Below are positions 3,480 to 49,906 of a stretch of DNA of 64,000 nucleotides, one piece after another (positions within the stretch are counted from its first letter, which is position 1; every line of letters starts with the position of its first letter). This DNA is from Xanthocytophaga agilis (lineage in GTDB: Bacteria > Bacteroidota > Bacteroidia > Cytophagales > 172606-1): assembly GCF_030068605.1 (NCBI RefSeq), contig NZ_JASJOU010000021.1, positions 62,001 through 126,000 of the forward strand, written 5' to 3'. The notes beneath the pieces are model-generated. The model was not told the origin of the DNA. It worked only from the letters and a program-made list of their open reading frames with translations, and made no database searches. The translations under genes and the position numbers were made by a program.

Positions 3480-4405
3480 AAAACCTAACTCTGGACCATC
3501 AGCGTCACAAGGTATACAAGGATGCCGGACTAAAAAATGTACCGCCGATCTCCATTGAGAATACAGGCTCATACATGTTGATCTAACAAGTTTTTAGCAG
3601 ATGTTTTTAGCTGAAAAAGTTCTTGTAATTGAATTATTATCGAAAATAAGCTTGAATGGAGGTTAAGAAATTATAAATTAACTTCTAATAGAATAGAAAT
3701 AGACTTGTTTCCATTGCTTTTTGAATTTACACATATGGAATCAACGACAAAATAAAACACTGATACATAACCAGTTAACCACTGCCTGGGCATTATTTTT
3801 GTTGCTTTTTTTATACCACTCTCAGTTGAGTGGTTGAATTATTCAAACTGTGGTGAAAACCTTGCGTTCCCTGAATGTGGGGTTTTCCTTCCAACATAGT
3901 CTTATCCTGAGAGCCGTATTAATGGTAGCTTAGCTTTTACTAAATGCTATCCTCTGAATTCTATTATTTATGGGTTGTCTTGTTGTATAATGTATAAATG
4001 TTTATACATCGGAAACCTCATCCTTTATTTTAGGTTAATGGCAAGGTTGAATACCATTAAAGTGACTTTTAACTTATTCACATTTCAAGCAATTTTATAA
4101 ACGTTATTACTCTGATATGCAAGGTTTGGGATAAACAATAACATACAAAGTTTCCTTCAGTGTACGACCATCTAAGGAATCTATCTATCTAAATCTATAT
4201 AGAAAATCTATTGGCATAATCTAATATTTTTCGAAATAGGGCTCCAGTATTGTTTTTATAGGTAAATAACTGAGAAGGCCCAAGTCCATTTATAAAATAT
4301 TGTAGCCTAAATTGTCTAATGTCTTTATAGGTTGTTGTCAATTCTATTACAAACTTGTATAAGTATTTAGAAATTGTGAACAGGTGAGTAGAGGGCTTAT
4401 CAAAC
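3480..4405. other. Gene-poor stretch
   Basis: No convincing gene was seen here. The only sizeable minus-strand frame (4195-4449, 84 codons) overlaps the inverted repeat at its 5' end and matches nothing I recognise. The sequence around 3810-3870 has weak resemblance to the spaced-repeat family described at 17858-18055, but not enough to call it. Confidence 0.4.
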
Positions 4406-4462
4406 AAAACAATCCGTAACGCTTCTCTGTTAGTCTCTATGAGAAACATTACGGATTGTTTT
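4406..4462. repeat. Long inverted repeat, hairpin-forming
   Basis: Perfect 14-bp arms (4406-4419 and 4449-4462, AAAACAATCCGTAA) with an inner 5-bp stem (TTCTC 4423-4427 with GAGAA 4441-4445). The arms end in A/T runs on both sides, so it could act as a bidirectional terminator or be the relic of a small mobile element. Confidence 0.55.
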
Positions 4463-4543
4463 TAGATCACAGATAGAGTACTTATTGCAACAACGAAATC
4501 AGATGTACACTTTTCACATATTCTTCGGGAAAGATTTGAAAAA

Positions 4544-4571
4544 ACAAACCCCTGATTTAAGGAGGGGTTGT
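4544..4571 (-). terminator. Intrinsic terminator of the T9SS cargo gene
   Basis: A CCCCT/AGGGG hairpin with one bulged base lies 24 bases past the stop codon of the minus-strand gene and is followed, in the direction of transcription, by a run of six T. Confidence 0.7.
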
Positions 4572-4594
4572 TCTGTACATAGCATAAAATATGT

Positions 4595-5893
4595 TTACTG
4601 TTTAATGATTTTGAACTGTTCGTTTTTACCCGTTTGATCGGTGATGTTAATCAGATACAACCCAGGAGCTAAAGAATTATCTTTGAATGAAATAGTCTCA
4701 TTAGCAGACGCTTTTTTCGAGAAGAGCACTCTTCCTTGCATAGACATTAGTGTTACATTAGCGTTTTGATAAGTAGGCTTAAGCTGAATAGATACTTGAT
4801 CTGAGAAAGGGTTTGGTGAAACAATGGAAGGGCTATCCAACTCATCACTGATAGCCGCTCCAGCCAAACGAGAAGACAAACTACCACCTCCAGTAGTAAA
4901 GGTAGAAGTAACAGATGTTGGTCCATAACATACAAAGCCGCCGCTCACACGTACTTCATATTTGGTATTAGGCTGTAAAGCAACAGAGGGTGTCCACTGA
5001 TTGACATTTTGACTTACATTCTGACGAATATAATCTTCTCCTTGCCAGTCTGCCGGATAACGATCAATTTCATAACTGATAAATATCCATTGAGTGCAGC
5101 CCCCATTTGGATTAGTTGAATAATTACCAAGAGTAATAGTAGGTGTAGTAGAAACATCTGTAGCACCTGTTGTAGGACTAATAAACTCAGCTGCCTTTGG
5201 AGTTGGAACAATATAGGGAACGTTGTATGTATTTTGAGCTAGTATAGTTCCTAAGGAATCAAATGTGGTAATAGTTAACTCTTTAAAATGCACTATACCC
5301 TTTTCGATCTGCGTAGCATCATATATATATGTAAAGTTAACAGGTTGTACTGCCTCGTCAGATGTTAAGGTTTTTGTATCTGCTGTATAAGGAGAACCTA
5401 CATAAAATCGTACAGTAATTTTACGGGCGTTAGGATTATTGGGGTTAACATTAAAACCAAAATATCTGTTTGTTTCATACAAAACCAAGGTATCAGCCGA
5501 ATTAATCAGAAAAGGCTTAGCTTCTACAACAGGTACATATTCTGTAAAAATAGTGTAATAGGTTTGTCCTATCACATAGCCATGGCTTCCCAATGTGCTT
5601 ACTTCAATCAGGTACTGATTACCTGGCTGCAATGGAGCATCTGCAATTAAAAACTGGTTGGTAGAGGCTGCATTCTGAGTTGCTTCATAAACAAATGTCC
5701 GAGGGTCATTTAACAGGATCTTTACTTTTACCTGTGCAGCTAATGAATCATTGGCTTGTGTTTTAATGACCAATGGTGCAGCAACGTTGACAGTTGAACG
5801 ATCAGCAGGAGAAATGACTAAAGGATCTGAAGCATAACTGGCTTGTGTCAAAAAATAGCTGAATACGAACAACAGCTTGTAAAAATGATTCAT
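4595..5893 (-). CDS. Secreted protein with T9SS C-terminal sorting domain
   Basis: This 432-residue protein has a Sec signal peptide (about residues 1-21, ending SYAS) and ends in a type A sorting domain. The PNPFSDQVSIQL motif opens the C-terminal domain (about residue 357), followed by MQGRVLFSKK, LAPGLYLINIT and a basic FKIIKQ end. Such domains direct proteins through the type IX secretion system to the cell surface. The middle is built from Ig- or fibronectin-type beta domains (for example TTPTITLGNYSTN and LQPNTKYEVRVSGG, the last typical of Fn3). No enzyme motif is visible, so an adhesive or structural surface role is likely. It is transcribed alone and ends at its own terminator. Confidence 0.85.
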   Translation of the reverse strand: MNHFYKLLFVFSYFLTQASYASDPLVISPADRSTVNVAAPLVIKTQANDSLAAQVKVKILLNDPRTFVYEATQNAASTNQFLIADAPLQPGNQYLIEVSTLGSHGYVIGQTYYTIFTEYVPVVEAKPFLINSADTLVLYETNRYFGFNVNPNNPNARKITVRFYVGSPYTADTKTLTSDEAVQPVNFTYIYDATQIEKGIVHFKELTITTFDSLGTILAQNTYNVPYIVPTPKAAEFISPTTGATDVSTTPTITLGNYSTNPNGGCTQWIFISYEIDRYPADWQGEDYIRQNVSQNVNQWTPSVALQPNTKYEVRVSGGFVCYGPTSVTSTFTTGGGSLSSRLAGAAISDELDSPSIVSPNPFSDQVSIQLKPTYQNANVTLMSMQGRVLFSKKASANETISFKDNSLAPGLYLINITDQTGKNEQFKIIKQ

Positions 5894-6399
5894 AGTATAA
5901 ATTGGTATAGGTAGATAATATAGTAGAACTGTTACTAAAGAATATTTATCTCTTAATAACTACTATGCTTGATAGTAAACAAGAAAGTGAAAAAAAATAC
6001 ATCTGTTTTGCAAATAAAATATCATACACCCAATACTCTACATTACATCTTAGCCATACTGTTATAAAGTAAAAAAACCATAAACTTCTGATTAACAACA
6101 AACAACAGATACTTCATTAGCAAATTGCAGATAAATTATAGAATAGAACCAGCACTCCTTCTAGGATTCTTTATTTTCACATTTATATTTATAATAAACC
6201 CAATTGAGGCATAGCTGCTATAGTATAAAATAAGAAGCAACTGATTAGTCCTTAAAAGAAATTATACTACTTCTTTTAAATCATACAACATATAAAACCC
6301 TTTAGTGAATAGAAACTCAGGTTACAAAAGATAACCCTCAATAATTTTCATTCACTTTGCAAGTGTGTGAAGGGCACTATACATAATCTACTTATTCAT
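5894..6399. other. Intergenic, AT-rich
   Basis: No gene was recognised. It should include the promoter of the leftward T9SS cargo gene; no clear Bacteroidota -7/-33 motif could be assigned. Confidence 0.4.
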
Positions 6400-33830: not shown

Positions 33831-34370
33831 TTAGAACTCAAGCTCTAAACCTGAGTCTGGTATTGGTGGATAATCTTTTTTATCACTCATAAAACGGATC
33901 AGCAGATTTTCGACAACATAACTTGCACCTTGCTTCTTCTGACGTAGTCCTTCCCAATAGATCATCCGTTGCAGATGCTCCATTACATCCTGTGAAAGAT
34001 AAAAAGTATAGTTGCTTCTCTCTACCGCTTGTTTTCCAACATTATCCTTTACACTTGTATCCTTTCTGGGGATGGCTTTTGAATTTACCTCAGCTTCTTT
34101 AGCTTTCACAGCCTCCGGCTTAGTTTTCGATATAGTCGAAGCTGTGTTTTTACCAGTGTTTTTGACAGAGTTCACATCTTCTATTGTCTTCTCCCCTCCC
34201 CCTTCACTATTTTGTGTGTCTCCATCTGTTGGTTTAGTAGCTACGGATGATCCAGTCAATGCTTCACGATTTAATTTCTCTTCTTCTTCTGCCAATTCGA
34301 GCAGTGTCTTACCTTTTGTAGCCAAAGGTGTGTTTTTAAGCGATTCAGAGATAAGATCTTTTTTATTCAT
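33831..34370 (-). CDS. Small ParB-like partner of ParA
   Basis: The 179-residue product overlaps the end of parA by 8 bases, as partner genes usually do. The first 110 residues are low-complexity, rich in Lys, Glu, Thr and Ser (SVATKPTDGDTQNSEGGGEK...), and probably disordered. The C-terminal 65 residues are ordered and start YTFYLSQDVMEHLQRMIYWEGLRQKKQGASYVVENLLIRFM, the strand-helix-helix pattern of ribbon-helix-helix DNA-binding proteins. Such small partners bind the centromere and activate ParA. Classical ParB domains are absent. The function is inferred from position. Confidence 0.75.
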   Translation of the reverse strand: MNKKDLISESLKNTPLATKGKTLLELAEEEEKLNREALTGSSVATKPTDGDTQNSEGGGEKTIEDVNSVKNTGKNTASTISKTKPEAVKAKEAEVNSKAIPRKDTSVKDNVGKQAVERSNYTFYLSQDVMEHLQRMIYWEGLRQKKQGASYVVENLLIRFMSDKKDYPPIPDSGLELEF

Positions 34371-35133
34371 GGCGAGTCAGGATTTCTTTAGTGAGGGATA
34401 AATAATCAACTGCACCGTTACAATTTCCATCATATTCAAAAATAGATTGTCCTTTCATAGGCGAATCGCCCAACGCCGTACATGTACGAATATAAGTAGA
34501 GAAAACCTTTTCTCCCAAGGCACTATCCCTGATAGCATCTGCAAATCCTTTCTTGGTGTTATTTCGTTCTTTCGCATTGTATTGAATAATAACAATACCC
34601 AACAACTCAATGTTTTCATTTACCTCCTGCTGAATCTTTGTCAGATACTCATCCAGTGTAGAAATACCCACATAAGAGAAATAGGCAGTCTGATAAGGAA
34701 CCAACAAATCCGTAGCTGTAGACATCGCATTCTTGGTATAAATTCCCAGGTTAGGACCACAATCAATCAGAATATAATCATACACATTAGCCTCTCGGAT
34801 AGGCTTTAACGCTTTGTAAAGCAGCAGTTCACGCAAAGATTTTTCATTTAGAGTTGAAATTACACTATCCATAATCGGATGAGCAGGAATCAAATCCATT
34901 CCCAGTGCAGGAACAACCACCTCCTTCAGCGAGTGTAACCCCAACAATAGGCTTGCCAGGTTATTTTCAGAAAAACTTGTTTCTAACCGAAAAGAAATGG
35001 TCAGGTTGGCCTGAGGATCGGCATCTATAAGCAATACCTTTTTTCCCAGATCACGCAGGGCAGCACCTACGTTCAAAGTTGTGGTAGTTTTCCCTACCCC
35101 ACCCTTCATGTTGGCAACAGCTATGGTTCTCAT
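34363..35133 (-). CDS. parA: ParA-family partition ATPase
   Basis: A 256-residue ParA protein with the deviant Walker A box KGGVGKTTT (residues about 10-18, MKGGVGKTT), Walker A' DADPQANLT (about 39-47) and Walker B IDCGPNLGI (about 123-131). ParA dimers on the nucleoid pull plasmids or chromosomes apart. The short N-terminus, with no extra HTH domain, makes it type Ib or chromosomal-like, so autoregulation would be done by the small partner. The gene lies upstream of that partner, with an AT-rich, palindrome-rich 1.3 kb tract before it. No conserved chromosomal neighbours such as gidA/gidB are seen, so plasmid-type partition is more likely than chromosomal. Confidence 0.9.
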   Translation of the reverse strand: MRTIAVANMKGGVGKTTTTLNVGAALRDLGKKVLLIDADPQANLTISFRLETSFSENNLASLLLGLHSLKEVVVPALGMDLIPAHPIMDSVISTLNEKSLRELLLYKALKPIREANVYDYILIDCGPNLGIYTKNAMSTATDLLVPYQTAYFSYVGISTLDEYLTKIQQEVNENIELLGIVIIQYNAKERNNTKKGFADAIRDSALGEKVFSTYIRTCTALGDSPMKGQSIFEYDGNCNGAVDYLSLTKEILTRHE

Positions 35134-36430
35134 TCTGATGTTGTGGTTTATATTGTTTAGTTATCCTTGTATATTATTTTTTTCATTTCTTATGAATGTA
35201 CCTTCTCTTCTTACTACTTCTTTTTACGGCTTAACAGAGATAGACTTTTCAATTTAGAATGTACAAGTAGTACTTAAACATGTTTTACATATATATTCTA
35301 TCATATACTCAACTACGAATCTTTCAAGGCTCATTCACTCAATACGTATTACACACCAATAGATTAAATAGTAAATTAATACTTATTCATTCAATATAGA
35401 TAAAAGCAAGTAGTATTCACTGATTTTATAAGTACTTTTTGCACATTCAGTTTATAAATATAAAAAGCATGAACATACACTAAATCTTCATTCAGTATTT
35501 TTAAAATCTCTACATATACATGCAATACACCTACAATAAAGCAACAAATATTTAATAAATCAGCATGCATAGTATATATATTCAGCAAATATATACATAA
35601 TTAACATAGACATATTACATATACACATAATAAATAAATATTCACTTACTAAGCAAGCAATTAATAACTATGCAAACAATAAAAAATAGCACAATATATA
35701 ACTACTAATTACACAATATTTAAATATACATTAAAAAATAATTTAATCAATTAATCTTTATTAAATCACTAATCATTCAATAAATATAAAATAAGCATTC
35801 ATATAACAACTAAATGAACAATTAAACAATGAAAAAATACTCATTTAAATATTACCTTAATAAACATTTAAGAATTAAACATTTATACAATATCTATCAT
35901 ATAATAATTAAATAATTATTGTATGATATTACATTAACAAAACAACTAAACTTAACATCGTGTATTTAACTAATAATTAATCTATAAATGTTTATTAACA
36001 TACTATTTATTGCATCAACAATTATTTAATAATAAAATATTCACATAATTTATATTCATACATTAGTGACTATAAGACAACTACATATTACGTATACATT
36101 GTTACATTGAGTAGGTAAAAATTAAATACGTATAAATAACACATTGAAAAAATGTAGAGTAAGTCAATGTATGAATAAAAAGTCAAGATGAGGAGAATGT
36201 ATTAATACGCGGATAGCGCATAAAACAAGACACTTATAGAATAGTCATTTACTGCATACACATGATTAAAATGTATATGCAATAAATAGTCACTAATCTA
36301 TTCATCGAATAAAGATTAAATATGAATAAATGACACATTAAATAAATATAAAATAAGTTAATGTAGAATGGCAACAAAAAAGAGGAGGAGATATGTTAGT
36401 ATTGATAGCTTTGTTTAATATCCTAATCTG
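35134..36430. other. AT-rich palindrome-rich tract (candidate centromere/partition region)
   Basis: About 1.3 kb of extremely AT-rich sequence with no gene. It contains a near-perfect 34-bp palindrome (arms 35895-35910 and 35913-35928, one mismatch), a perfect 12-bp inverted pair ATTAGTGACTAT (36062-36073) / ATAGTCACTAAT (36286-36297), and two imperfect direct copies of about 85 bp (36121-36205 and 36315-36402). The position directly upstream of parA is where a type-Ib partition centromere is expected. An A/T-rich unwinding region is another possibility. Confidence 0.5.
36121..36405. repeat. Two imperfect direct repeats of about 85-90 bp
   Basis: The copies begin ATTAAATACGTATAAATAAC (36121) and ATTAAATATGAATAAATGAC (36315) and stay alignable through CACATT, AAAATGTAG/AAATATAAA, AGTCAATG/AGTTAATG to GAGGAGAATGTATTAAT / GAGGAGATATGTTAGTAT. 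They are 194 bp apart at the upstream end of the AT-rich tract. Each copy ends with a purine-rich patch. Their function may be centromere-like. Confidence 0.5.
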
Positions 36431-36437
36431 AACTAAC

Positions 36438-36602
36438 ATGAGTGAAATTGTTATTGCTCAAAACCTATTACTTAAATATCTTAATTATCATTGCAACTGG
36501 GTACAATGTAACTTTGCGACTGCTCGTCCTGCCCAGTTTCGTGAACAGCAGCTAGTAGCTATGCTGAAGGCATTTGGCATTGTTCCTTCATTGGATAAAT
36601 AA
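36438..36602 (+). CDS. Small protein, 54 residues, unknown
   Basis: From ATG 36438 to TAA 36602 the frame encodes a 54-residue peptide, with LLLKYLNYHCNWVQCNF then PAQFREQQLVAMLKAFGIVP. Composition is protein-like. It starts 10 bp before a decayed gene and directly after the AT-rich tract. It might be a small regulator of the neighbouring gene, or a remnant. Confidence 0.4.
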   Translation: MSEIVIAQNLLLKYLNYHCNWVQCNFATARPAQFREQQLVAMLKAFGIVPSLDK

Positions 36603-43008: not shown

Positions 43009-44223
43009 TTATTTTTCTTTAACTACATACCAAATATTATCAATCTTTTGTCTTTCAAAGCCATTATCCAGATAAATCTCTTTAACCCAGGCGGCAAAGT
43101 CCAATGAAGTACGTTTGCGTTTTACAGAATTCTCATGCATTTCAATCAATTCCGTTTCTGAATACGATACAATCTCATAAGATGGAGTAGGAGAGGAGGG
43201 AACCTTTGTTTTTTTCAAAAATTCAGATTTGAATTTACGATCTTCAATCCAACGAATCAACTGTCCACCAGGAGAGGCTATTTTATCTTTGTCCTTTGAG
43301 GTAGTTAGCTTATGTAATAAGAACCATACAAAGGCCTCTGAAGCTTCAAAACCATCAGTATCCATATATAAGGCATCAGAGATACGCCTTATACCTTTAG
43401 CATCAATAGGGAGAGCTTCAAGGGCGTCAATAAGTTTTGCAGAAATTCGTAGTGGTTCAAGAGGTAAAACGGTAACAGAACCACTTCGGCGGATAAATGT
43501 CCAAGCCAATGTTTTGTTTCCCTGTTTAACAGGATCACCAAACTCAAAAGCACAATCTGTCTTATCAATCTCAGGTTTAACAACCTTTTCAAGGATATGG
43601 CGTTTAATATCTTTCGGATTAGGATAAGATTTGATATCCTTTAGTAAGCAATTACGACATTCTTCAACTGTAATTTGAATCTTAACTGTATCTGAAACTG
43701 TACTAGTTTTTGCCATACGGGATTCTTCGTAACGAAATCGTGCACGAAGCATCCAGTAAAAACGTACAGTACGCTCATCTTTAAACATTTTGAGCGTAGC
43801 CAGATCAGCTGGAGTATAATTATCAATCAGATTAAGTAGATATTCTTTTACATCAGGATGAAACTGGCATAAAAGAAATCCTGTACCACTATCATGGTCA
43901 CATTTATCTACAATAGAGCGAAGACGGAACCGTTTCCTATTTGGGTTCATGGGATCAACAGGAGCAATATCGATTACCTGTGATTTTAAAGCAACTGCAG
44001 CTTTTTTTAGGTGTTCATAACTATCGCCATCCTTACGTGGCAAAATCTCGGAGAGGGGAATACGCCATAAAGGGAATTCAGTATCTGTCCGGTTAATGCG
44101 TTCAAGCATTGAAATAAAGATTTTGCTTTCAACGCTCCCCATTGCAAATGGAGCAAAAATAAGATTATTATGCTGGCGAACCTCCTTGGGTTTGGCAGAA
44201 AAAATTTCTAACTGCTGTTCCAT
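43009..44223 (-). CDS. Replication initiator protein, Rep_3 (RepB-like) family
   Basis: The 404-residue protein (ATG 44223, MEQQLEIFSAKPKEV; the frame is open to 44262 but the added 13 residues look non-coding) resembles Rep_3 initiators. A first winged helix spans FAPFAMGSVESKIFISMLERI to ILPRKDGDSYEHLKKAAVALKSQVI, and a second spans YTPADLATLKMFKDERTVRFYWMLRARFRYEE. Such proteins bind iterons to open plasmid origins. Iteron-like repeats start 640 bp upstream. The C-terminal part (after about 270) is a helical extension. It is longer than typical Rep_3 proteins. It could also act as a repressor of its own promoter. Confidence 0.8.
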   Translation of the reverse strand: MEQQLEIFSAKPKEVRQHNNLIFAPFAMGSVESKIFISMLERINRTDTEFPLWRIPLSEILPRKDGDSYEHLKKAAVALKSQVIDIAPVDPMNPNRKRFRLRSIVDKCDHDSGTGFLLCQFHPDVKEYLLNLIDNYTPADLATLKMFKDERTVRFYWMLRARFRYEESRMAKTSTVSDTVKIQITVEECRNCLLKDIKSYPNPKDIKRHILEKVVKPEIDKTDCAFEFGDPVKQGNKTLAWTFIRRSGSVTVLPLEPLRISAKLIDALEALPIDAKGIRRISDALYMDTDGFEASEAFVWFLLHKLTTSKDKDKIASPGGQLIRWIEDRKFKSEFLKKTKVPSSPTPSYEIVSYSETELIEMHENSVKRKRTSLDFAAWVKEIYLDNGFERQKIDNIWYVVKEK

Positions 44224-44865
44224 GGAGCTAAAGTAAACAAATACTAGGAAAAACAAAAACAAAAAATTCCCAGTACTCTCTTATATAACCTGTCTAAATT
44301 TATTTTAGAGATTGTCTTCCATAATTAATAAATGCTGCTAAGGCATTTAGCATTACATATGAGAGATGGATTCTCCTAATTTTCAGTGAGTAATCTATGA
44401 TTATGTGTCTCTAAATACACTTGGACAGTTATACAATCGGATTGTTGATCATCTTTACAACTATTCTGGATACTTTCTTAGTAAAAGTTGTCAATATTCT
44501 TGATTCTTGGAGAGAAGCTTCTGTCTGCACCTAATTACTCGTGAACTATTTTTTACAATGACATTGTAGTATGTCTGATCGACAAAGAAAGAGGGTTTTA
44601 TTTACAACATTTTTCCTTTGGGCATTATCCAAATCATTTTTGTTAGCATGCATAGTTGAGTGGCTAAAATTCATAGCACTTGTCTAGCCACGGTGAATTA
44701 TGTAAAAGCGCTAATGTGCTGTACATATTTATTCACCCATATGAACCAGCAGAGGGGTAAGCATTCTAGTATAATCTAACATCAGAATGATACCTATGGA
44801 TTATGAGTATATAATAGTAAATCACTAGTCTTTAGATATGTTCAACCATTATTTAGCTTTTTTGT
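44224..44865. other. Leader region between rep gene and iterons
   Basis: About 640 bp without a gene, AT-rich, containing the leftward promoter of the first rep gene. Near 44650-44705 the sequence contains TGAGTGGCTAAAATTCA and CCACGGTGAATTATG, loosely like the reversed 28-bp repeat family, but this is weak. Confidence 0.4.
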
Positions 44866-46007
44866 ACTGGGAGAGATTCCACGAAACAATAATGTTCTTA
44901 GGTTGACGTAAATGAAAAAGAATAAAAGCTTCGTGTATTTTCTCCCAATATTTCGTGCTTTTCCTCCCAGTTCGTGGAATTTATCCTAGTACAAGAAATA
45001 ACAACGTGTATTCTCTCCTATAGCAACGTGTATTTTCTCCTAGTAACCCTAATATGTTCGTGGTTTTTCTCCTATTCCTTCGTGCCTTCTCTCCTAGCAT
45101 ATACATATAAATAACTTATAATCAAGTACTTAGTCTGGTCTAATTAGATAAACTAGAAAAGAACTAGACTAACTTAGCCTTAACCAAAAAGGGTTTGGGT
45201 TAAAAAAATAGAACAACTGGGAGAAAAACCACGAACTTTAATACAAATTTGAAGAAAAATCTAAACTAGAGTTAGAATCCCCCTTTTTGCGCGTGCCCCC
45301 CTTATAGCTTTAGATAAAACAGAGCTAGATTAGTAAATCTATAACTTTCAGAATAGTATTCTATCTGCCTTAAAATTAGATCATTATTGAATTTTAAGAA
45401 GTCTGAATTGTAGATCAACAACGAGATAACTTTTTTGTTATTATCGAATTACTTGTTTTGCGAAGCACAAACTAGGAGAGATTCCACGAACGCAAAAAGT
45501 TTTTATGGCTAAAAAAAAATACAAGGCTATCTCTATGAAGATCTTTAGTAAACTAGTTTTGATAATAACTATCTGATTATGAGTTGCTTATTGTGAAAGC
45601 TGATTTTTAAGCTATTCTGGAATTTCTCCCATTACTTCGTGTATTTTCTCCCAGTTGGTTCGTGGTTTTTCTCCTAGTAGTCGTAATGACTGATTTTTTA
45701 GTAGAGTAAAGAAGGACTTTTACTCACTTGAACTTTGCATTTTATATATTCTAATTAAATGGAATTTCGTGGTTTTTCTCCCAGTATTGAATTTAAGACA
45801 ATTTTATTTACTAAAGTTTATTTGTAAGAAGCATTATTACTCTAAGAGAATACTTTTTTCATTTCTCAGCTTTATTCGGTAATTGATATTTTGGATGTAC
45901 TAGGAGAAAAACCACGAACCAACTGGGAGAAAATACACGAAGTAATGGGAGAAAATACACGAGAGCAAGGTTTGTTCAATTATGAGTACTGGGAGAAAAG
46001 CCACGAA
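44866..46007. repeat. Cluster of about 18 iteron-like repeats (candidate origin of replication)
   Basis: The unit is TTCGTGTATTTTCTCCCAGT with G/T and T/C variants, about 20 bp. Forward copies begin near 44930, 44952, 44971, 45003, 45025, 45057, 45079, 45615 (degenerate), 45636, 45659 and 45766. Reverse copies (ACTGGGAGAAAATACACGAA type) begin near 44866, 45216, 45471, 45899, 45922, 45943 and 45988. The core GTG...TTT.CTCC is the most constant. The copies in a group lie 19-33 bp apart, near the 20-22 bp typical for iterons. The region lies between two Rep_3-type genes, so it is the best candidate for the origin. Confidence 0.85.
45623..45954. repeat. Perfect 56-bp inverted repeat within the iteron cluster
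   Basis: 45623-45678 is the exact reverse complement of 45899-45954. Each arm holds two full iterons and part of a third. The spacer is 220 bp and contains one further iteron (45766) and AT-rich sequence. The exact identity of long arms suggests recent duplication-inversion or selection to keep two mirrored initiator-binding blocks. Confidence 0.9.
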
Positions 46008-46026
46008 GCTTATTCTTAAAACAATC

Positions 46027-46320
46027 TTAAAGGAAAGACAAACAAATAACTCGGTCTAATTGCACTTTGTTATCAAATTGAGTGAAGTATCCGAGAATCA
46101 AGTCAAAATTTGGTAAAAATTCACTTATGAATATAAATTCGAATTTCTCATCTAAAAATTTAGCTACTGGAAGATGGTGTTTTTTGTTCTCTATAGCTGG
46201 CAACACTGGCAGAATTCCAATCAAAATTAGAGTGGTGGTTCTTTCTAAAGTCTTCTTATCTATATTTAGCGAGAAGATTATTACTGCTAATTTTTTAAAA
46301 TGCTTATAATCAGATTTTTA
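46027..46320 (-). CDS. Open frame beside the iterons, uncertain
   Basis: A minus-strand frame of about 97 codons (from just after a TAA near 46317 to the stop at 46027) reads YKHFKKLAVIIFSLNIDKK, KFLDEKFEFIFISEFLPNFD, LILGYFTQFDNKVQLDRV. It contains ATG only at codon 33 (46224). The composition is protein-like but no start or family was found. It may be a relic or a small gene with an alternative start. Confidence 0.3.
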
Positions 46321-46400
46321 TAATTTTTTTATATTTATTAATATTTGTAAGATATTAATAACCAACTGTTTATAACTTGAATATTTGTTAGAAAGATTTT
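46310..46400. other. Very AT-rich stretch next to the iterons (candidate unwinding element)
   Basis: Almost pure A/T for about 90 bp, with repeated TTTTTATAATTTTTTTATATT-like runs, starting 300 bp from the last iteron. Origins of this type place an A+T-rich DNA-unwinding element beside the iterons. The sequence also encodes the start of the frame above, so this is only a candidate. Confidence 0.35.
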
Positions 46401-46464
46401 ATCAACCGAAAAAGCACAAGTAGTCACCTAAGAAAATATAAAGGACACATTTTAGGTTGCGTTA

Positions 46465-46480
46465 ATAAAGTGCACTTTAT
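46465..46480. promoter_or_regulatory. 16-bp perfect palindrome
   Basis: ATAAAGTGCACTTTAT reads the same on both strands, in a gene-free stretch between the iterons and the transposase relic. It could be an operator; no target gene is evident. Confidence 0.35.
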
Positions 46481-46799
46481 ATTAGATTGAAATAACAAAT
46501 CCAGGATAGGAGTGAATAGATAGGGCAGAGCCATTAATAAGCAGCCTATTTGAGAAGACTAATTTTGCAATCAACCTTGGATATTTATATTAAACTAAAC
46601 AGTCACTCTATGTAAACCCTGATCCCAAAACGTTTTATCAACAATAGTTTTATTATTCTGATAGGTCTTAAGTAAATCTAGTCCTTTACGAAAGAACTAT
46701 ACGCTTTATACTATAATTCTTAGTTTTAATATTTTTCACCTTGATTGCTTGTCATCGGAGAAAAAGCAAAAGGATTAGCAACAGAACAATCAACCTTTT

Positions 46800-47420
46800 A
46801 TCTTCTATAAGCATTGTAGATGAGTTGTTTCCGAATCAAAACCACACTTTTTCATGTTCTGGAGCAATACCTTAATATTCACCTACTACGTAGTAGATAG
46901 TACCCAATTCTTCGGAGGCCGTAATACCGATTGAAAACAAAATATCTTTTTATAGCGTTTGGGCTTTCGGTCTAATAATTGTTCTACCAATGGGGTCTGT
47001 CCATTGCATAAGATGAACAAATGATGTTTAACGCAGAAAAAACAATAACTGATCCAATAAACTTTCCTTACGACTGTTTGCCTACAAATTCCCGATCTGC
47101 AATTAATAGCGCTATCCGGTCTTTGCCTACCAAACCTGTGTATTTGCCAGCGAGCTTCTACAGAAGAATTCTCACTGCTGTTTTCAAACAACTTTCAGCA
47201 GAGTGGAATGACTACCTGTACAGTCTTTGCTGTTAGTATCAGGACCTGATATTTGTTAGAGTTTTATTCGGTTGTGTCTAAGTATAAGACTATTTTTTCT
47301 TTGGGAGTAAATAAGTATAGAAGCAGAGACACTTGATCATAATTAAGTCCGATATCTTTGAAAAAAGCCTAATCAATGGATTCATTACTTTGCTGATTAT
47401 TGAAATGAGTTGCTTACTGC
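46800..47420 (-). pseudogene. Degenerate IS4-type transposase
   Basis: On the minus strand, shifting between frames, the sequence spells YLFTPKEKIVLYLDTTE (first catalytic Asp), then NKYQVLILTAKTVQVVIPL, LAGKYTGLVGKDRIALLIADREFVGKQ (second Asp, the ADREF block typical of IS4-type enzymes), and downstream the relic of the C-terminal part. Several in-frame stops and shifts prevent expression, and no inverted repeats or target duplication were identified. Confidence 0.6.
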
Positions 47421-47883
47421 ACTAAGCTGTACTTTTGTACTCTTGAATTGAAAATGAGATTTTAAAAGAGATTAATCCGGGACCATGCGGTAGCCATAAA
47501 AGTGGTAACTAAGTACCTAAAATGCTAAATCAGACCAACAGGGCATATTAGTAGATCAAAAGAAGTAGAGTTGCTAATTAAGATATGTTCAAAATTAGAA
47601 AATGTGGATAATTAATATTAAGCCGATTGTTCCTCTATTATCTTTTAAAAAAGTTGCTGTTTGTGTTGAGAATAGCACGTTAAGTGATTGGTACGTATTG
47701 TAATTTGTAAGGTAGAGGTATCAGTGAAACTTTTATTTACCATTAGGGTATTGATCGAAGTATACCTACTTCGCAGTTCATTAGATCAAAGTGGAATCTG
47801 CTTTCGGCTGAGAATTATAATTTGTTGGTCTTGTTTCTTGAAGTGGAAGATGATTAAAATTTGTGGCTTTATTTTAGTTTTCT
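47421..47883. other. Intergenic before the second rep gene
   Basis: No full gene. A plus-strand frame near 47748-47858 (GIDRSIPTSQFIRSKWNLLS... to TAA) looks like a relic. The DnaA-box-like site at 47603 is listed separately. Confidence 0.35.
47603..47611 (-). promoter_or_regulatory. Perfect DnaA-box-like site
   Basis: TGTGGATAA, the reverse complement of the consensus TTATCCACA, at 384 bp before the second rep gene. A single 9-mer match in this AT-rich sequence can occur by chance, but plasmid origins often carry one DnaA box near the rep gene. Confidence 0.45.
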
Positions 47884-47913
47884 ACTACGACTACGAAATT
47901 TCGTAGTCGTAGT
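47884..47913. promoter_or_regulatory. 30-bp perfect palindrome upstream of second rep gene
   Basis: The arms are ACTACGACTACGAAA and TTTCGTAGTCGTAGT, 15 bp each with no loop. Within it, the CTACGA trinucleotide-like pattern is duplicated. It ends 81 bp before the ATG of the second rep gene. Looplessness and position suggest a dimer operator, for example for autorepression by Rep, rather than a terminator. Confidence 0.65.
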
Positions 47914-47994
47914 CGTTAATATTCTTGAAAAGAAACTTGTGCAAAAGACATAAATGTGACATTTTTGATATAAGTATTAAAGTTATATAAGTGT

Positions 47995-48801
47995 ATGGCA
48001 AAGATGAATACTAGCAAAAGGCAGAATAAAGCTCAGCAACTTCCCTTATTTTTACCCAAACAATCTATACAGGGTTCGGGTAGTGGAGAAATTGAAGGTA
48101 GTATAGATGACATTGATAGTGAAGAGATCAAACAGTTTAATAATTTGGTGATTGCACAACATGATATGAACCTATATGAAAGACGAATTTTTATATCAGT
48201 CCTTAAAAATTTGCCCGAGATAAATGCAGAAGATCCTATTCAAAAGGATAGCTTTTCAGTATGGGTCAATATTCACCAGCTTATAGGAGAAAGTGAATTA
48301 GCAGGACAATCTGCTTTTTCAGAACTGAAAAAGGCAACTCAGCTACTTATTAAGCATATATGCAAAATAGATATGGGTAATCGCGTTCTGCAAATCGCAT
48401 TACTCAGTTCGGCAGAATACTACAAACGAGAGGGAAAAATAGAACTTCGGTTTGATGTCAAATTATTACCATATCTACTACGTATTAAGAATGAATTTGA
48501 ACCTCAATATCTTTCTGAGTTAATGCAGTTTCAGAGTCGATATTCTCAATGTTTTTATGAATTGTTTAAGCGAGAATCTCGTAAGGGTTCTGTAGTTTAT
48601 ATAGAGTTAGTAAGACTGAGAACTTTATTAGGAATAGAAGAGATTTATGAACGTTATAATGATTTAAAACGAAAGGTAATCTATCAGGCCCAAAAAGATC
48701 TTGTACACTATGCGGATGTCGCATTCAGATTCGAAGAGAAAAAAGTAAAAGGAAAAGTTGAAGGTATCTATTTTTATTTAAATCAAATGTTAGGCGGATA
48801 A
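47995..48801 (+). CDS. Second replication initiator-like protein, Rep_3 (RepB-like) family
   Basis: A 268-residue protein with a low-complexity basic head (MAKMNTSKRQNKAQQLPLFLPK) and two winged helices typical of Rep_3 initiators: KQFNNLVIAQHDMNLYERRIFISVLKNLPE to LIKHICKIDM (first), and LSELMQFQSRYSQCFYELFKRE to LVRLRTLLGIEEIYERYNDLKRKVI (second, with the conserved YSxxxYELFK-type segment). The length fits plasmid Rep proteins. The 30-bp palindrome 81 bp upstream is a likely regulatory site. It shares the NNLVIA.....E.RIFIS pattern with the Rep at 43.0-44.2 kb, so two different initiators flank the iterons. Confidence 0.85.
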   Translation: MAKMNTSKRQNKAQQLPLFLPKQSIQGSGSGEIEGSIDDIDSEEIKQFNNLVIAQHDMNLYERRIFISVLKNLPEINAEDPIQKDSFSVWVNIHQLIGESELAGQSAFSELKKATQLLIKHICKIDMGNRVLQIALLSSAEYYKREGKIELRFDVKLLPYLLRIKNEFEPQYLSELMQFQSRYSQCFYELFKRESRKGSVVYIELVRLRTLLGIEEIYERYNDLKRKVIYQAQKDLVHYADVAFRFEEKKVKGKVEGIYFYLNQMLGG

Positions 48802-49264
48802 TTAATGAAAAGTTGACATATATTTACACTTCATTATTGTATAATTAATGGATTATGTGTATATGTCCCTTGTATTCATCGCCAAAGCTATGGACAAATT
48901 GGCTTATGATACCTAGGTAACACTAGATCATAGTCAGATGAGTCATTGAACCGAGATGCTGGGAGTTTTCGCGATGAATTACACAATTTCTATATTTAAA
49001 AGCTAAAGTTAGATCTAATGAAGGTTTATCTTTGTTCGATCTAATCAAGAAGCCTGTGAGGAAGTTATGCGGAATCAATCCAGCTTTGCTTATCTAGTTT
49101 ACTGATATTCAAGCTTATGCCCGCCAAGCGGAAGAGCTATTGCCATTTTTTAATACCGCAGATTTTTCTAGAGACTTAGCTGTGATTTATCCAGTCTCAA
49201 ATTTGAGTTAGTATCATTGCTCTCTTCATAGTATAGAGGCACTACTGTTACCTGGATTAGACAT
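48802..49264. pseudogene. Relic with one in-frame stop, unknown
   Basis: A plus-strand frame from about 49010 reads EGLSLFDLIKKPVRKLCGIN, meets TAG near 49098, and continues FTDIQAYARQAEELLPFFNT to a stop at about 49211. It looks like the remains of a gene, with no family recognised. The rest of the stretch is plain. Confidence 0.3.
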
Positions 49265-49906
49265 TCATCTGATGTTAGACAAGTAATAATGCCATAGCAT
49301 CATGCAGGCTATTGATCGGAACGGTTTCCATTTTTCACTAATTTTGAGAATTTCTTCTTTCGAAGCAGATGAAGCAAGTTGTTTCAGAGACTTTAATGCA
49401 TTGCTTGCTGCTAGATCACCCATCGGAAAAATATCTGCGCGTTTAAGTGCAAACATTAAATATACATCAATGGTCCAATTTCCAATGCCTTTCAAACCTA
49501 TAAGTGATTGACGCACCTGATTGTTGGACATTTTTGCAAATTGTTCAAGAAGAATCTTTTTGTCTTTGACTTCCTGAGCTAGACCTCTTATATAACCTAT
49601 TTTCTGCCGGCTGACAAAACAAGCTTTCATCTGTTCGTCAGTAAGGAGAAGAACAGTTTCCGGCATGATCCTCTGTGTTTTCTCCTTAAGTTTGTTTAAA
49701 GCAGCTAAGGCAGAGGCCAACGAAACTTGTTGCTCAAGGATAATATGTACAAGTGTTTCAAATGTATTTTCCCTTGTCCACATTGGAGGATAACCATTGA
49801 TATCCAAAATTGTTCTCAGATCCTTATCCTGATCTGCTAAGTACTCACATAGCTGGTGATAATTCTGAAGGTTGAAAGTTATTGATTCTTCTACAGAGGG
49901 TATCAT
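49265..49906 (-). CDS. DNA-3-methyladenine glycosylase-like (HhH-GPD)
   Basis: This 213-residue protein is an AlkA-like base excision glycosylase. The helix-hairpin-helix is at LIGLKGIGNWTIDVYLM (about 137-153), with the catalytic Asp in the following PMGDLAASNAL. The upstream helices TFETLVHIILEQQVSLASALAALNKLKEK are the family's conserved EQQ segment. It removes alkylated bases. It is transcribed alone, with no alkA/ada partner nearby. Confidence 0.9.
   Translation of the reverse strand: MIPSVEESITFNLQNYHQLCEYLADQDKDLRTILDINGYPPMWTRENTFETLVHIILEQQVSLASALAALNKLKEKTQRIMPETVLLLTDEQMKACFVSRQKIGYIRGLAQEVKDKKILLEQFAKMSNNQVRQSLIGLKGIGNWTIDVYLMFALKRADIFPMGDLAASNALKSLKQLASSASKEEILKISEKWKPFRSIACMMLWHYYLSNIR

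Follow-up and report, generated by a model that had tools for sequence, protein, structure and literature searches.

The best-described system that resembles the locus reported here is the origin oriS of the F plasmid with its initiator RepE, a Rep_3 protein with two winged-helix domains. As described in PMC13028717, four iterons lie in oriS and five more in incC, and opposed repeats located before the rep gene serve autorepression. Our locus lies within a stretch of DNA of 64,000 nucleotides (the window), which corresponds to positions 62001-126000 of contig C21 in a draft genome of 9.77 Mb and 66 contigs (G000). Like F, it combines iterons and a Rep_3 protein with two winged-helix domains, here called Rep A, and it possesses opposed half-sites before the rep gene in a layout similar to that outlined for F (PMC13028717). 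In contrast to the divided set of F, the 16 iterons of the window form one array, and the C-terminal part of Rep A, past about residue 245, falls outside the Pfam match, in which it differs from RepE.

Plasmids of Spirosoma and Hymenobacter, such as those of S. oryzicola (NZ_CP089539) and H. tibetensis (NZ_CP094670), provide a second comparison. They encode a long Rep_3 protein, usually of about 400 aa, and carry iterons upstream of rep with periods of about 20-22 bp, and parA is often close, all of which resembles the arrangement in the window. However, their Rep proteins are only 25-33% identical to Rep A and their iterons have other sequences. The array of the window is also distinct in that it has both orientations and is spread across 1.1 kb. 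Flammeovirga is a further relative among the Cytophagales. Its second chromosomes possess plasmid-type ParA/ParB and RepA as well as rRNA genes, have a GC content near that of the main chromosome and are more plastic (PMC8653839). Going by this description, the replicon proposed below is alike in being a second replicon with plasmid-type Rep and Par functions, rRNA genes and chromosome-like GC. The Flammeovirga second chromosomes are 1.4-2.2 Mb, however, and the passages that describe their RepA do not assign it to a family (PMC8653839). Finally, Rep_3 replicons with an rRNA operon, some of them with parAB, are represented by the rrn plasmids of Persicobacteraceae and others, likewise Cytophagales (PMC10645730). 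As described there, those plasmids are small and hold all of the rRNA operons, whereas in G000 other contigs also have operon edges.

Based on the current evidence, we propose, with a probability of roughly 0.72, that a plasmid-derived secondary replicon of a Xanthocytophaga species has its origin of replication at the array in the window, with Rep A as the initiator. This is a joint figure for two components, a Rep A origin and its location on a separate secondary replicon. Taken by itself, the first component, that the array is a real and selected Rep_3 iteron origin belonging to Rep A, is highly probable. As an origin, it is of the ordinary Rep_3 iteron kind known from plasmids such as those of Spirosoma and Hymenobacter. 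The coordinates of the features discussed are collected in Table 1.

Table 1. Features of the replication and partition region and of purL, in window coordinates.
Feature	Position	Strand	Basis or remark
179-aa ORF, possible DNA-binding partner of ParA	33831..34370	-	Position only; overlaps the end of parA
ParA-type ATPase	34363..35133	-	Pfam AAA_31, E 5.4e-48
Non-coding AT-rich tract, candidate centromere	35140..36480		Upstream of parA
Rep A, Rep_3 initiator, 404 aa from ATG at 44223	43009..44223	-	Pfam, profile match, ortholog
Two opposed half-iterons, candidate operator	44242..44275		18 bp upstream of the rep A start
Iteron array, 16 copies and 2 decayed	44866..46007	both	Pattern matches; 17 copies on the sister contig
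Stretch similar in both species, not iteron	45139..45188		Inside the array; read by eye in the alignment
Element with two C tracts, similar in both species	45272..45305		Inside the array; read by eye in the alignment
Candidate unwinding element, 87% AT	46291..46390		Most AT-rich 100 bp starting in 44201-48000
Perfect 30-bp palindrome, possible operator or terminator	47884..47913		Upstream of rep B
Rep B, second Rep_3 protein, 268 aa	47995..48801	+	Rep3_N and Rep3_C above Pfam cut-offs
purL, long form, 1241 aa	58754..62479	+	Only purL detected in G000; TTG start as listed mechanically

The initial annotation described about 18 copies of a 20-bp unit in both orientations. A pattern search recovered the array at exactly the coordinates given there, with 16 copies of the unit TTCGTGNNTTTTCTCCYAGT at up to 2 mismatches, nine on the plus strand and seven on the minus strand. 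Between 44200 and 46400, seven copies are exact, ten have at most 1 mismatch and all 16 have at most 2. The earlier count is explained by two further, decayed copies at 45003-45022 and 45614-45633, each of which has 5 mismatches, and the one at 45003 has a good copy at the equivalent place in Xanthocytophaga flavus. When up to 3 mismatches were allowed over the whole 64-kb window, there were 16 matches, every one inside the array. Dinucleotide shuffles of the window gave a mean of 0.12 matches and a maximum of 2, and none of the 100 shuffles reached 16.

The sister species X. flavus YF14B1 (genome G006) provides further evidence that the array is maintained. Its contig C62, of 392,576 bases compared to 166,136 for C21, possesses 17 units when up to 3 mismatches are allowed (G006:C62:236582-237810) in a layout closely like that of the window, and these adjoin an ortholog of Rep A. 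Measured from the first unit, and with the decayed unit at 45003 counted, the first ten units of the two species occupy positions that differ by no more than one base, while the later ones are displaced by up to about 100 bp. In the alignment of the window with C62, 295 of 319 iteron columns (92.5%) are identical as opposed to 882 of 1832 other columns (48%), with gaps scored as differences. For an alignment of the array only, the corresponding values are 90.3 and 57.1%. None of 1210 shifted masks of the array reached 90.3%, although the margin is narrow because the best mask reached 89.3%. The array, its spacing, the half-iteron block and Rep A are thus all kept in the sister species while the DNA between the iterons has diverged, which upholds the original suggestion of a plasmid-type iteron origin.

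These repeats might instead be binding sites of some other regulator, or a mobile repeat, and two sites outside the array, an exact one on C15 and a second on C2 that has 1 mismatch, could be read in that way. The remaining ten sites of G000 at up to 1 mismatch, however, are all within the array, and both the half-iteron block and the similar arrays beside related plasmid rep genes fit an origin. An explanation without an origin is therefore extremely improbable.

Rep A matches the Pfam families Rep3_N (E 1.4e-17) and Rep3_C (E 1.8e-4), both above the cut-offs, and a profile of its family matches the chains of F RepE and R6K Pi in their structures. The ortholog on C62 is 96% identical, with a dN of 0.022 and a dS of 0.64. 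Judged by the resulting dN/dS of about 0.035 (NG86), Rep A is under strong purifying selection. Relatives of Rep A occur on 133 of 72,556 plasmid records, most commonly in Priestia (42) and Hymenobacter (34), and among the 30 plasmid matches listed all are less than 35% identical to it. The half-iteron block in front of rep A is identical to that of C62 at 34 of 34 bases. By analogy with the layout reported for the F plasmid (PMC13028717), the opposed half-iterons are proposed to be the autorepression operator of rep A, and Rep A is proposed to be the cognate initiator of the array.

The initial annotation placed the array between two different Rep_3 initiators, and both genes are indeed Rep_3 by Pfam. 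However, the second is not adjacent to the array, since about 2 kb separate the last iteron from Rep B. The idea of two initiators at one origin also fared poorly in other respects. A search of C62 for an ortholog of Rep B returned a weak match to Rep A alone, no iteron family was found beside Rep B in 46100-49400, and the half-iterons stand at the start of Rep A instead. Because Rep B has neither an ortholog on C62 nor iterons nearby, the origin was assigned to Rep A. A dual-initiator origin, used by Rep A together with Rep B, would agree with the presence of Rep_3 proteins on either side of the array and with Emticicia plasmid pEMTOL02, where a relative of Rep B (43% identical) lies beside a longer Rep_3 gene with an array. 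Still, C62 keeps the array yet has no Rep B ortholog, Rep B itself is without an iteron family, and only one of three relatives of Rep B examined has an array nearby, which is of another sequence (L222, but not L018 or L224). Joint action of both proteins at the array is accordingly very unlikely, and Rep A remains the preferred initiator.

Relatives of Rep B that are 39-46% identical were found in genomes G001, G002 and G004, and one of them, in G004, is interrupted by stops. Rep B is probably an acquired or orphan gene. In Emticicia pEMTOL02 (L115, positions 3741-5926), two Rep_3 genes lie end to end and the longer one adjoins the iteron array, so an arrangement with two Rep genes is found elsewhere too.

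An AT-rich stretch had initially been noted alongside the array. The most AT-rich 100 bp of the region (87% AT) begin at 46291, past the distal end of the array. In the sister region on C62, the most AT-rich 100 bp (89% AT, at G006:C62:236411) are likewise found just past the distal end. DnaA boxes are a feature of Rep_3 iteron origins, although they are absent from some members. No exact DnaA box is present in the array or in the sister region. The only exact box in 44200-48000 is at 47603-47611, upstream of rep B and about 1.6 kb from the array. A switch in GC skew had been suggested as a check of the origin, and here the species disagree: in C21 the sign of the mean skew switches at the array (from -0.020 to +0.014), but in C62 it does not (from +0.021 to +0.018). 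Within the window, the minimum of the cumulative GC skew is near 36 kb, at the G-poor tract upstream of parA.

From the array, gene families, conservation, operator-like sequence, composition and synteny observed, we infer a working origin on its own molecule, with binding, repression, unwinding, autonomy and partition as follows. If Rep A behaves like RepE of the F plasmid, its monomers would bind the iterons. The bound protein would help to open the AT-rich stretch at 46291-46390 and bring in the replication machinery of the host. As a dimer, Rep A would act at the opposed half-iterons in front of its own gene, 18 bp from the start, and repress it, and copy number may be limited by titration together with pairing of Rep-bound arrays. 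Segregation of the replicon would depend on the parA region and the G-poor tract.

The parA gene is about 9.7 kb from the array, and its product is 34% identical to a ParA of a Hymenobacter plasmid that is encoded next to a related Rep. The 179-aa ORF that follows parA matched nothing in Pfam or NCBIfam, and a comparison with the ORF at the equivalent place on the Hymenobacter plasmid gave no real similarity (E 0.75); neither the Pfam and NCBIfam searches nor the comparison with that plasmid identified a ParB partner. The tract upstream of parA, which may serve as a centromere, is 78% AT, and G on the plus strand falls as low as about 3%. It is 75-96% identical to C62 in steps of 150 bp and includes a 16-bp inverted repeat (94%) at 35895-35928. 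No perfect palindromes with arms of at least 9 and loops of at most 8 bases occur in C21 95001-100000.

Several properties of C21 and C62 bear on the type of replicon that possesses this origin. Their composition is close to that of the chromosome, for which the reference was a single 398-kb stretch of contig C2 that holds dnaA, so that regional variation may affect these comparisons. The GC content is 39.3% in C21, 39.7% in C62 and 39.1% in the chromosome stretch, and the dinucleotide distances are 24.4 and 25.8, respectively, compared to 21.4 within the chromosome stretch. In contrast, alignments with C62 cover only 28.5% of C21, whereas those with C11 of the sister cover 92% of the chromosome stretch. 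The GC skew is steady along the chromosome stretch, with a mean of -0.058 (-0.061 in its sister counterpart), but the mean is -0.007 in C21 and +0.020 in C62. Contigs C28 and C29 of G000 also align with C62. For these aligned fractions and contig matches, alignments of at least 500 bases were kept, as for the block described next. A 22-kb block of C21 (G000:C21:40042-61620) is 96% identical to part of a different large contig in the sister (G006:C22:593087-614671), so part of C21 is possibly chromosomal or has moved between replicons.

No end overlap that would close C21 or C62 was found among alignments of at least 800 bases, and since both assemblies are drafts, a separate molecule is an interpretation. 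At their edges, C21 and C62 each enter a 16S gene, of which they include the first 105 bases, and a 5S gene marks the end of C28, which would fit an rRNA operon located between C21 and C28. The chromosome contig C2 also ends at an rRNA operon, and with operon edges on other contigs the putative operon at C21 would not be the sole one. These assignments are based on contig edges because a whole-genome search for 16S (RF00177) gave matches in none of three genomes, even the one-contig G005, and was taken as uninformative. One 5S locus of G005 shows 576 N.

These observations leave some room for an old plasmid that integrated into the main chromosome, in which Rep A and the iterons would survive as a remnant or as an additional origin that is seldom used. 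The draft state of the assemblies, in which neither C21 nor C62 closes, allows for this, as do the 16S edges shared in kind with the chromosome contig C2, the 22-kb block on another large sister contig and the lack of a GC-skew switch at the array in C62. However, a remnant is hard to reconcile with the purifying selection on Rep A and with iterons that are kept while their spacers drift. Moreover, conservation is far lower and the GC skew weaker in C21 and C62 than in the sampled chromosome stretch, and parA and the conserved non-coding tract have been retained. Integration is thus an unlikely explanation, and a separate secondary replicon is preferred.

The cargo of this secondary replicon is also of interest. 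In G006, purL was detected on C62 alone, as it was on C21 alone in G000. Three other genomes of the family yielded only shorter best matches to this purL, at 25-35% identity, so the form of the enzyme may have been exchanged in Xanthocytophaga. Chromids are recognized by the criteria quoted in PMC12456017. In regard to composition, the GC content and dinucleotide signature are near those of the chromosome, and replication and partition are of the plasmid type, with Rep_3, iterons and ParA. Candidate core genes are the only purL detected and the 16S start at the contig edge. Overall, C21 appears to belong to a secondary replicon of plasmid descent and is a chromid candidate, and the replicon may also carry genes on which the cell depends.

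Both contigs also contain four tRNA-Leu genes in a row, with anticodons TAA, CAA, TAG and CAG (G000:C21:149440-149833 and G006:C62:175298-175692). Two of the four are only 75 nt, which is short for a tRNA-Leu. The cluster was considered as essential cargo and rejected, as the anticodons TAA, TAG and CAA were found on other contigs in 20 chosen stretches outside C21.

In Vibrio, crtS couples the firing of a replicon to the rest of the genome. By analogy, C21 could belong to an indispensable second chromosome, with the only purL and its own rRNA operon, whose firing is coupled through Rep A to iterons elsewhere in the genome. Such coupling is hardly plausible. The surroundings of the outside sites L004, L012 and L101 have no mutual blastn similarity, so none of them stands at a place conserved between both species, and a conserved regulatory site was rejected. 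L012 and L101 are surrounded by genes that we take, by eye, to be phage-like. L004 is the exact copy of the array iteron on C15 (G000:C15:122601-122620).

All ten further Rep_3 loci examined (L111-L115, L002, L019, L022, L017 and L020) have an iteron array next to rep, each with a sequence of its own. Two of these, L002 (G000:C15:139880-143314) and L019 (G006:C13:132076-136254), are orthologs with 98% identity between the two species and represent another conserved Rep_3 gene. Their iterons are of the CGGCTGTTTNNCTCACCTA type, unlike TTCGTGNNTTTTCTCCYAGT. With this additional conserved gene and its own iterons, Xanthocytophaga seems to maintain two or more Rep_3 replicons.

A literature search, judged from titles, found taxonomic work on Xanthocytophaga but no report on any replicon of the genus. 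The two-species map makes the array a clean test object, in which the positions of the iterons are fixed while the DNA between them drifts. The setting is a Rep_3 replicon in the Cytophagales, in a soil bacterium, which seemingly carries an rRNA operon and the only purL and is kept in two species. It would bear on the transition from plasmid to chromosome and on the link reported between Rep_3 plasmids and rRNA operons (PMC10645730).
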